This document shows positions 10,402-14,974 of a stretch of 50,177 nucleotides of DNA, piece by piece. The translations under genes and the position numbers were made by a program. Source of the DNA: a virus; the IMG/VR virus record IMGVR_UViG_3300044491_001277, positions 1 to 50,177 of that record; one strand, written 5' to 3'. Under the pieces are notes generated by a model that was given only the letters and a program-made list of their open reading frames with translations, had not been told where the DNA came from and ran no database searches. Positions within the stretch are counted from its first letter, which is position 1. Each line of letters begins with the position of its first letter.

Positions 10402-10409
10402 CATAAATA
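10402..10409 (+). promoter_or_regulatory. late promoter
   Basis: CATAAATA, followed by CACACACTGA. The same ATAAATACACACACTGA string recurs before gp26 at 18793, so both genes likely share late control. Confidence 0.55.
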
Positions 10410-12984: not shown

Positions 12985-13313
12985 GTTTTTTCAATTCAGA
13001 GTTTGTTCAAGAAGAATTAAAGGAGATCTCTACTCTACAGGAAGAGATCTACACAAAGATGCATTCCTTCTCTGGTATGAACAAGGAAGATAGACTCTAT
13101 CATGTGGATCTATTGGAGAAACTTCTAACTAAACAACGAGTCCTATATACTAGGATGAGTTTATCGGATGACCCTGAAGCAAAGACCATGAAGGAAACTA
13201 TCATGGAACAGGCAATGATGTTGGGGTTTCCACCTAATACAGACATTTCATATGTGTTTTCTAACATGACAGGCATCATTGCCAACATGAGGAAAGCAAT
13301 TTCTGAAAGTTAG
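12981..13313 (+). CDS. DUF1825 family protein
   Basis: The 110-aa protein, MSFFNSEFVQEELKEISTLQ through ANMRKAISES, reads as the DUF1825 family shared by cyanobacteria and T4-like cyanophages, with the helical N-terminal FVQEEL-EI block and LGFPPNTDI near residue 80. Function is unknown. It is coupled to gp59 by ATGA and is the last gene before the promoter and hairpin region at 13318. Confidence 0.85.
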   Translation: MSFFNSEFVQEELKEISTLQEEIYTKMHSFSGMNKEDRLYHVDLLEKLLTKQRVLYTRMSLSDDPEAKTMKETIMEQAMMLGFPPNTDISYVFSNMTGIIANMRKAISES

Positions 13314-13317
13314 GGGG

Positions 13318-13346
13318 TTGTCAAACACCTAAAAAAGTAGTATAAT
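13318..13346 (+). promoter_or_regulatory. strong sigma-70 promoter (P1)
   Basis: TTGTCA at 13318-13323, a 17-bp spacer and perfect TATAAT at 13341-13346. The predicted start, near 13353, coincides with the first G of the hairpin RNA. Confidence 0.75.
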
Positions 13347-13352
13347 AGGTAT

Positions 13353-13399
13353 GGAGAGGGACTAACCTTGTTTGTGGTTATTCAAATTAGTCTCTCTCC
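13353..13399 (+). ncRNA. candidate hairpin small RNA with a loop complementary to the endonuclease mRNA leader
   Basis: GGAGAGGGACTA (13353-13364) pairs with TAGTCTCTCTCC (13388-13399) as a 12-bp stem with one G-U, around a 23-nt loop. The loop holds CTTGTTTGTGGTTAT (13367-13381), the exact reverse complement of 13437-13451. The downstream U run (TTTAAC) is too short for a standard terminator, so the RNA may run on. The promoter position and the loop complementarity support a regulatory RNA. It could also be a terminator or a structured leader of one long transcript. Confidence 0.5.
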
Positions 13400-13451
13400 T
13401 TTAACATGCCTCGAAATAGTTAGTATAATATATACTATAACCACAAACAAG
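13367..13451 (+). repeat. 15-bp perfect inverted repeat
   Basis: CTTGTTTGTGGTTAT at 13367-13381 and ATAACCACAAACAAG at 13437-13451, 55 nt apart. The first arm lies in the loop of the hairpin. The second begins at the predicted start of the P2 transcript and ends 8 nt before the endonuclease ATG. Confidence 0.9.
13401..13429 (+). promoter_or_regulatory. sigma-70 promoter (P2) for the homing endonuclease
   Basis: TTAACA at 13401-13406, a 17-bp spacer and perfect TATAAT at 13424-13429. The predicted start is 13436-13437, giving a 24-nt leader to the ATG at 13460. Confidence 0.7.
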
Positions 13452-13459
13452 AGAATACT

Positions 13460-13867
13460 ATGGGCATCATTTATTGCGGAGTATGTCTGTATACAAACAA
13501 AAAATATATTGGGTCGTCTAAACTCTCCCTCCAACGACGAATAACATATCATATAAACCGACAACAGGACAACGAGTTTTATAACGACATACAACTCTAC
13601 GGACGAGAGGGTTGGTTATGGGGTGTAGTTGAAAAGGATATACCCGACGACGAACTCCTGTTGAGGGAGTTGTATTGGGTTGAGGAGTTTGGTATTGACA
13701 ACCTATACAATACCAGACGACCTATCAAACCTCTTGGAGAGACCGACTACTCCCTCCATAAACAAAAATACTTGGATAGACAGAGGGAGTATCTCAAACG
13801 ACCAGAGGTTAGGGAGAGACGACGAATACAGAGACAGGAGAAATACAGAGAGACACACCCTGACTAA
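13460..13867 (+). CDS. GIY-YIG homing endonuclease
   Basis: The 135-aa protein starts with a GIY-YIG domain: GIIYCGVCLYTNKKYIGSS (residues 2-20), catalytic-region Arg in LQRRITYH, a Glu in the ELYWVEEFG helix (70-78) and NLYNTRRPI. The C-terminus is a very basic repetitive helix (YLDRQREYLKRPEVRERRR) likely to bind DNA. It is a selfish gene that cuts gp32-region DNA of relatives lacking it. Codon use (many CGA, ACC, GAC codons) differs from the neighbours, pointing to transfer. It interrupts the usual gp59-gp32 spacing. Confidence 0.85.
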   Translation: MGIIYCGVCLYTNKKYIGSSKLSLQRRITYHINRQQDNEFYNDIQLYGREGWLWGVVEKDIPDDELLLRELYWVEEFGIDNLYNTRRPIKPLGETDYSLHKQKYLDRQREYLKRPEVRERRRIQRQEKYRETHPD

Positions 13868-13874
13868 ATACTCT

Positions 13875-13900
13875 GTTACAACCAGTTTTACGGATGTAAC
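13875..13900 (+). other. short hairpin after the endonuclease gene
   Basis: GTTACA (13875-13880) pairs with TGTAAC (13895-13900), with one further flanking pair and a 14-nt loop. There is no T run, so it is not a clear terminator. Confidence 0.4.
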
Positions 13901-13922
13901 ACCATACATTACTCTCATTATA

Positions 13923-13931
13923 TGTTATAAT
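13923..13931 (+). promoter_or_regulatory. extended -10 promoter for gp32
   Basis: TGTTATAAT: a TGn extension directly before a perfect TATAAT (13926-13931), with no good -35. It sits inside an ACTCTCAT/ATGAGAGT inverted repeat (13911-13918 and 13932-13939). The predicted start near 13938 gives an 80-nt gp32 leader. Confidence 0.6.
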
Positions 13932-13944
13932 ATGAGAGTAGGTT

Positions 13945-14017
13945 TCTCGGTTCTAAACAGACCGAGACACACACATACAACACAATACAACTAATACATT
14001 CAATACGAGGTATACAA
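13945..14017 (+). promoter_or_regulatory. gp32 mRNA leader, possible autoregulatory operator
   Basis: A hairpin (TCTCGGT 13945-13951 with ACCGAGA 13961-13967) near the 5' end is followed by about 45 nt of A/C-rich unpaired sequence up to the GAGGT ribosome-binding site and the ATG. This is the arrangement T4 gp32 uses to repress its own translation: a 5' structure followed by an unstructured tract. The pseudoknot itself is not evident. Confidence 0.45.
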
Positions 14018-14974
14018 ATGGGTTTCGGAGACCTTAAAAAGCAGTCTTCTCTTGGTAGTCTTACTGCCAAACTCGTTAAAGAGGTTGAGAAGCAAAATGG
14101 GGGTGGGGGAAAGGTTCAAGATGATAGAACCTGGAAACCAGTCATGGACAAGAGTGGTAACGGTTACGCTGTCATTCGATTCCTCCCAGCACCTGATGGA
14201 GAAGATCTCCCTTGGGTAAAGATGTTCTCTCATGCCTTCCAAGGACCAGGTGGTTGGTACATTGAGAACTCACTCACCACTATCGGACAGAAAGACCCTC
14301 TGGGTGAACTGAACCGTGAACTGTGGAACAGTGGTAATGATTCTGATAAGGATACAGTTCGTAAACAGAAACGTAAACTCTCCTTCTACGCCAACATCTA
14401 TGTTGTAAAGGATCCTGCTAATCCTCAGAACGAGGGTGGAGTATTCCTCTACAAGTTCGGTAAGAAGATCTTTGATAAGATCATGGAGGCAATGCAACCT
14501 GAGTTTGAAGATGAAGAGGCAATCAATCCCTTCGACTTCTGGCAAGGAGCAAACTTCAAACTGAAACTGAAGAAGGTTGCTGGTTATTGGAACTATGATT
14601 CCAGTGAGTTCGCAAACGTTGGTCCACTCTTGGACGACGATGATGCTATGGAAGCCATCTGGAAGAAAGAGTATTCACTTTCTGCCCTTACTGCACCAGA
14701 TCAATTCAAATCCTATGATGATCTGAAGAAGCGTCTTGATAATGTATTAGGTACAAAGTCAACACGTCAAGCAGCACAAGAAACAGAGTATGATAACTAC
14801 CCAGCAACAGAACAGAAGCGAGTCACAGAAGAGGAGGTCATGCAGAAGCTTGAAGACTCTTATCAGGCAGCCAAATCAACACCAACTTCTAGTGTCAGTG
14901 ATACTAGTGACGGAGACAGTGAAGATGATGACTCAGACCCAATGTCATACTTCGCCCGCCTCGCAGATAGTTGA
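14018..14974 (+). CDS. 32: single-stranded DNA-binding protein gp32
   Basis: The 318-aa protein has the gp32 layout. It has a basic N-terminal cooperativity region (FGDLKKQSSLGSLTAKLVKE), an OB-fold core with YAVIRFLPAPDGEDLPWVK and FKLKLKKVAGYWNYDSSEF, and a Ser/Asp-rich acidic tail ending DDSDPMSYFARLADS. No Cys is present, so the zinc site of T4 gp32 is absent, as in other cyanophages. It coats single-stranded DNA and recruits gp59. It is preceded by its own promoter and structured leader and followed by a terminator. Confidence 0.95.
   Translation: MGFGDLKKQSSLGSLTAKLVKEVEKQNGGGGKVQDDRTWKPVMDKSGNGYAVIRFLPAPDGEDLPWVKMFSHAFQGPGGWYIENSLTTIGQKDPLGELNRELWNSGNDSDKDTVRKQKRKLSFYANIYVVKDPANPQNEGGVFLYKFGKKIFDKIMEAMQPEFEDEEAINPFDFWQGANFKLKLKKVAGYWNYDSSEFANVGPLLDDDDAMEAIWKKEYSLSALTAPDQFKSYDDLKKRLDNVLGTKSTRQAAQETEYDNYPATEQKRVTEEEVMQKLEDSYQAAKSTPTSSVSDTSDGDSEDDDSDPMSYFARLADS

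Follow-up and report, generated by a model that had tools for sequence, protein, structure and literature searches.

A hairpin loop complementary to the leader of a homing-endonuclease gene in a T4-like cyanophage: a candidate RNA brake

Why should the loop of a strong hairpin match, base for base, the start of a homing-endonuclease message a short distance downstream, and could the two pair to hold down translation of that gene? The question is raised by a gap between two genes in the window, which is the whole stretch of DNA analyzed here, a 50,177-base fragment of a T4-like cyanophage that carries genes for gp32, gp59, and PhoH.

The insert and its promoters

The locus lies between the end of a DUF1825 gene at 13313 and the start of gp32 at 14018, and a GIY-YIG gene sits in between. 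The features are listed below, all on the + strand.

13316..13924, +, insert of ~609 bp running from the DUF1825 gene to the gp32 promoter region and holding P1, the hairpin, P2, the leader, and the GIY-YIG gene
13318..13346, +, P1, sigma-70-type promoter TTGTCA-17-TATAAT, 11/12 to consensus
13353..13399, +, hairpin S1 at the predicted P1 start, 13 bp (13353-13365 with 13387-13399) and a 21-nt loop, fold of -20.5 to -21.7 kcal/mol
13367..13381, +, loop arm CTTGTTTGTGGTTAT of a 15-nt inverted repeat, perfectly complementary to 13437-13451
13401..13429, +, P2, sigma-70-type promoter TTAACA-17-TATAAT, between the two repeat arms, 11/12 to consensus
13437..13451, +, leader arm ATAACCACAAACAAG, the 15 nt with which the P2 mRNA is predicted to start, perfectly complementary to the S1 loop arm
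13449..13454, +, weak Shine-Dalgarno-like AAGAGA, by sequence, partly within the leader arm
13460..13867, +, GIY-YIG homing-endonuclease gene, 135 aa (Pfam PF01541, 2.8e-6; PHROG 5123, 4.6e-7)
13923..13931, +, P3, extended -10 TGTTATAAT, likely the gp32 promoter by sequence, its -10 in the L009 position with respect to gp32
14018..14974, +, gp32 single-stranded DNA-binding protein (Pfam 5.1e-49; PHROG 224)

The boundaries of the insert can be read by comparison. In the closest relatives (L002-L009, whose DUF1825 is 81-85% identical), the allelic site is empty and the endonuclease gene is absent, and the gap between DUF1825 and gp32 in L002-L008 is 77 nt. In L009, GAAAGTTAGG runs directly into TTATAATAT; in the window, the same two sequences are separated by 13316-13924. 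Since these empty relatives have readable junctions, the hairpin, both promoters, and the gene came jointly or took shape inside one insert. The first-pass annotation had called the gene GIY-YIG, and the Pfam match bears this out. The gene looks intact, with residues R27, E70, and N84 preserved (alignment A1).

The same gap holds other endonucleases elsewhere. An HNH endonuclease occupies it in S-H68, S-B43, RB11-B, and S-B05 (L048, L049, L054, and L161; 455-1413 of L048), another HNH endonuclease occupies it in ACG-2014f (L171-L173), and SegG occupies the gene 59-32 gap of T4 (PMC2988022, PMC535899). With GIY-YIG genes in the window and in T4 and HNH genes in other cyanophages, the gp59-gp32 gap is flagged as a recurrent landing site. 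In ACG-2014f, a TATAAT box stands ~6 nt ahead of the HNH start codon, and the mRNA of this gene may thus have no leader.

Both tandem promoters of the first-pass annotation are present. The 50 kb contain seven sites scoring at least 11/12 on the two strands together, P1 and P2 among them, and the two are spaced 83 bp apart. The position of P1 matches that of the gp32 promoter in many relatives. P2 is not a late promoter, because the late-promoter motif NATAAATA is absent near it (13401-13436); the nearest copies on the + strand are at 10402 and 18792. Between 12400 and 14700, the + strand has no terminator-like site, and hairpin S1 is followed by TTT and AA only.

The loop–leader match and its folding

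The loop at 13367-13381 is, as first annotated, the perfect reverse complement of 13437-13451, and the leader arm ends 8 nt ahead of the endonuclease ATG (13460). The hairpin is also where it was placed, at the P1 start; its stem and loop lengths, given as 12 bp and 23 nt, had to be corrected to the values listed above, and they were the only coordinates that did.

The match is real, and chance is a very poor explanation for it. The window has no further inverted repeat of at least 14 nt with arms within 150 nt, and 40 dinucleotide shuffles of the window yielded none of 15 nt and, on average, 0.025 of 14 nt. In the viral loci fetched, 768,286 bases in all and many of them redundant, the pair is the sole inverted repeat of 15 nt or longer whose arms lie 30-150 nt apart. 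The loop–leader duplex is worth -21.7 kcal/mol, which none of 1,000 leader shuffles reached, and the 131-nt region around the hairpin has a folding z of -2.5. An Rfam search gave no match. A function for the match at the RNA level is likely, if unproven, and complementarity beyond chance, falling on the leader of a homing endonuclease with two strong promoters, makes a pairing that lowers translation plausible. To this extent, the proposal that a hairpin RNA blocks the leader stands; the part of it that called for a free short RNA is not well supported, as is discussed below.

The reading that we favor, tentatively and at a little under an even chance, is that the endonuclease insert brings its own cis-acting RNA switch, in which a pseudoknot between loop and leader serves as the brake. 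Transcripts begun at P1, or reading through from gp59 and DUF1825, would start with or contain the 13-bp hairpin. The hairpin loop would then bind the nearby downstream leader, forming 8-12 bp in a pseudoknot that leaves the stem intact, or as many as 15 bp should the uppermost stem pairs come apart. Such pairing would mask the region just 5' of the weak Shine-Dalgarno, of which the leader arm overlaps just three bases, and endonuclease translation would fall. The loop arm is missing from transcripts started at P2, whose leader would be free and which would be translated. This means that P2 transcripts would escape the brake, and P2 would thereby set the timing of endonuclease production. The P1 mRNA could additionally act in trans on the P2 mRNA. 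In favor of the cis switch, the repeat coincides exactly with the P2 start as predicted, and the 13-bp stem flanks the loop; against it, S1 excludes the loop–leader pairing in nested folding, P2 is not of the late type, and the searches gave no relative of the insert in which the arms could covary.

In nested folding of the RNA, hairpin S1 is retained at -32.7 kcal/mol compared to -21.1 kcal/mol with the loop–leader helix forced, which goes against the expectation that the pairing would open the first stem in a read-through transcript. The S1 loop and the P2 leader are both largely unpaired. By this modeling, the S1 stem and the loop–leader helix coexist only as a pseudoknot. A rough energy for the pseudoknot, with S1 and a second helix of 8-12 bp, comes to -28 to -34 kcal/mol compared to -20.5 kcal/mol for S1 alone; the estimate includes an added penalty of 9.6 kcal/mol, a Dirks-Pierce value. 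The full 15 bp together with an intact S1 stem is sterically doubtful because just one nucleotide would bridge the helices.

The cost of opening the ribosome site in the nested fold is similar for the two messages, at 4.2 kcal/mol for the P1 mRNA and 5.2 kcal/mol for the P2 mRNA. Without the 5' arm of S1, the loop–leader helix does form, and opening the ribosome site then costs 11.3 kcal/mol instead of 4.2 kcal/mol, which indicates that the pairing is able to block the site. One other candidate was set aside: hiding of the start codon through pairing of ATGCC (13406-13411) with GGCAT (13463-13467), which is present if the sequence is cut at 13470 and gone with downstream sequence included.

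Related leaders and rival explanations

A second copy of the insert was not found in searches with both arms, the stem, the DNA, and the protein, which returned distant endonucleases only, and viral and genome contigs hold no close relative of the endonuclease protein. The distant relatives (L055-L080) lie nearly all directly behind another gene, with no comparable leader, and the GIY-YIG genes of ACG-2014f are part of an operon elsewhere. Scans of viral contigs for both repeat arms, and for the S1 stem with its AA/TT ends, gave no match; a wider pattern for the stem gave nine, every one unrelated.

A partial parallel is seen in S-H68, S-B43, S-B05, and RB11-B. In these phages, a hairpin lies 38 nt past the stop codon of DUF1825, compared to 41 nt for the hairpin of the window; it begins with the same ten bases GAGAGGGACT and has AGTCTCTC in common in the other arm. 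Its loop (512-532 of L048) pairs with a leader (715-737) past a downstream TAGACA-17-TATAAT promoter. The arms differ in sequence from those of the window, and the complementarity is retained. The duplex, at -27.4 kcal/mol, is reached in 3 of 1,000 leader shuffles and at 7 of 3,000 random places, modest statistics once the choice of loop and promoter is counted, the pairing having been spotted prior to testing. Taken as a whole, the local alignment between the two leaders lacks significance, its score being reached in 87 of 1,000 shuffles; the sole features to stand out are the 10-base match in the stem and the complementarity. Also, the target leader in S-H68 belongs to a 53-aa ORF, with the HNH gene next. 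This ORF (L048 752-913) has a weak PHROG 10005 match (3e-4). In contig L174, the same HNH gene lies directly behind DUF1825, joined by TGATG (L174 1000-1060 compared to L048 440-925), so that S-H68 carries ~457 bp extra at the junction, comprising hairpin, promoters, and 53-aa ORF, an insert beside an insert. With the HNH gene of L174 lacking that region and the leader alignment not significant, S-H68 was rejected as proof of covariation, and the arrangement is suggestive only. A broader proposal would make it a recurrent module of endonuclease inserts in the cyanophage gp59-gp32 gap: an upstream promoter, a GAGAGGGACT hairpin, and an antisense loop matching the leader of a second promoter, through which RNA made at the first promoter would silence, both in cis and in trans, the message of the second. 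We regard this as rather unlikely.

The gp32 leaders of cyanophages and marine contigs (L002-L160, L047, L048, L054, and L174) were compared as well. A small hairpin is placed at the promoter, its loop pairing with a segment further downstream. In a short class, defined by a GAGG/CCTC, GGGG/CCCC, or GGG/CCC hairpin and a CTR-NNN-RAY loop, the NNN pairs fully, with G-U allowed, with the triplet just 5' of a conserved ACACARGCCAAAT-like stretch. All 37 of the leaders in this class do so; they comprise 24 distinct rows and carry six loop triplets between them, and none of 20,000 permutations equaled this, the positions having been assigned by the author on the same sequences as were counted. In a long class, the second helix has 5-8 bp of unrelated sequences, for example CCCAGA/TCTGGG in RB11-B, GGTCAGG/CTTGACC in RN05-S, and TCCCAGTT/AACTGGGA in L034; L174 has CCCCGA/TCGGGG. 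The remaining leaders of the set are shorter and have no such structure. The topology is that of the T4, T2, and RB69 gene 32 operator, and the sequences thus compared point to a covarying 5' pseudoknot, T4 operator-like, in cyanophage gp32 mRNA leaders. The window's gp32 has, at 13923-14017, its own extended -10 promoter and a strong hairpin, TCTCGGTT-CTAAACA-GACCGAGA, and a pseudoknot of GTTT/AAAC plus CTCGGT/ACCGAG can be drawn in its leader. A 2010 review knew of no other viral pseudoknot in translational autoregulation and wanted gp32 autocontrol studied in more diverse T4 relatives (PMC3014915). Our literature search found no published pseudoknot in a cyanophage gp32 leader; such a structure would extend the T4 model of autoregulation to a large marine group.

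The main rival to the cis pseudoknot brake is a neutral inverted copy, in which a switch of template as the DNA was replicated put an inverted copy of the leader into the loop of a tight hairpin already present, leaving a mutational by-product of no function. The match is exact over 15 of 15 bases, with abrupt ends and no similarity in the flanks, the hairpin minus the match would have an ordinary 6-nt loop, and no conserved copy indicates selection. Yet the match coincides exactly with a leader and its predicted start of transcription, between two promoters close to consensus, and the process would have to be rare, since no second such repeat occurs in the data inspected. We consider this origin unlikely, though it deserves to be taken seriously. 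The idea first put forward for this locus, that a free small hairpin RNA from P1 acts in trans, binding to the P2 mRNA and preventing its translation, has the unpaired loop and leader, the stable duplex, and a promoter of its own starting at the hairpin to recommend it. A separate small RNA is made less likely by the absence of a terminator after the hairpin; the P1 RNA would run on into the endonuclease gene, so that pairing in cis comes first. The free RNA is accordingly an improbable account.

Equally improbable, in our judgment, is a gp32-type operator, with hairpin and leader forming an enlarged version of the gp32-leader pseudoknot through which gp32 protein would repress the endonuclease too. 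The topology is shared, with a hairpin at the start site, a loop pairing to the downstream leader, and then an A-rich leader; P1 also occupies the gp32 promoter position of many relatives, and the gp32 leaders themselves covary. However, the stems here have 13 bp and as many as 15 bp and the linker 37 nt, compared to 3-8 bp and 5-12 nt in the gp32 leaders, and gp32 retains its own promoter and hairpin downstream. Control could also act on the DNA, if both 15-mers were protein sites, perhaps for the endonuclease as autorepressor, that loop or cover P2. One copy does overlap the P2 start, and the GIY-YIG enzyme I-TevI represses its own promoter through an operator resembling its homing site (PMC2988022). 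But the 15-mer is unlike the empty-site region of the relatives (best 11/15, in scattered places), and the 13-bp stem around one copy would be left unexplained, which makes control of this kind very improbable.

Comparison with known systems

RNA structures that hide the ribosome-binding site have been described for I-TevI, I-TevII, I-TevIII, SegB, and Aeh1 MobE (PMC2988022), and in cyanophage S-PM2, an antisense RNA of ~225 nt, CfrI, is reported over a homing-endonuclease gene (PMC2984593). These precedents overturn the view that RNA brakes on homing endonucleases of phages were undescribed. As in the T4-type switches, the gene in the window is a homing endonuclease, and inhibitory pairing is possible only on longer transcripts from upstream. 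Like I-TevI, SegB, and MobE, it has an internal promoter (P2, 13401-13429) between the arms, which end and begin at 13381 and 13437, and a short mRNA without the 5' arm.

The differences are as clear. The 5' arm in the window is in the loop of a strong hairpin, so its pairing needs a pseudoknot or a contact in trans, and the leader arm lies mostly 5' of the Shine-Dalgarno. The internal promoter is of the sigma-70 type, whereas that of the T4 class is late, and the long transcript does not hide the ribosome site or start codon in the nested fold (4.2 compared to 5.2 kcal/mol). Since the locus has neither a ribosome site hidden in the nested fold nor a late internal promoter, we describe it as working, putatively, like the I-TevI class and do not file it as a member. 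If the favored cis switch is true, selfish endonucleases of marine T4-like phages would solve the problem of timing by loop–leader pairing, unlike the nested hairpins of T4.

Three other systems come close in one respect each. T4 SegG is likewise a GIY-YIG gene in the gene 59-32 gap with gene 32 control elements on its 3' side; it is described as lacking a promoter and being transcribed from upstream (PMC2988022, PMC535899), whereas the window gene has two promoters ahead of it and P3 behind. The gene 32 operator of T4, T2, and RB69 (PMC3014915, PMC535899) shares the 5' hairpin, the loop pairing downstream, and the A-rich leader next; in the window, the stems and linker are much longer, and an endonuclease gene, not gp32, lies downstream. 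As with CfrI, the RNA here would be tied to regulation of a homing endonuclease in a T4-like cyanophage; CfrI is antisense, from the opposite strand, whereas P1, the hairpin, and the gene share one strand, with the RNA upstream. RNA control of T4-type homing endonucleases is thus already known, and the loop–leader pairing is a new variation on it.
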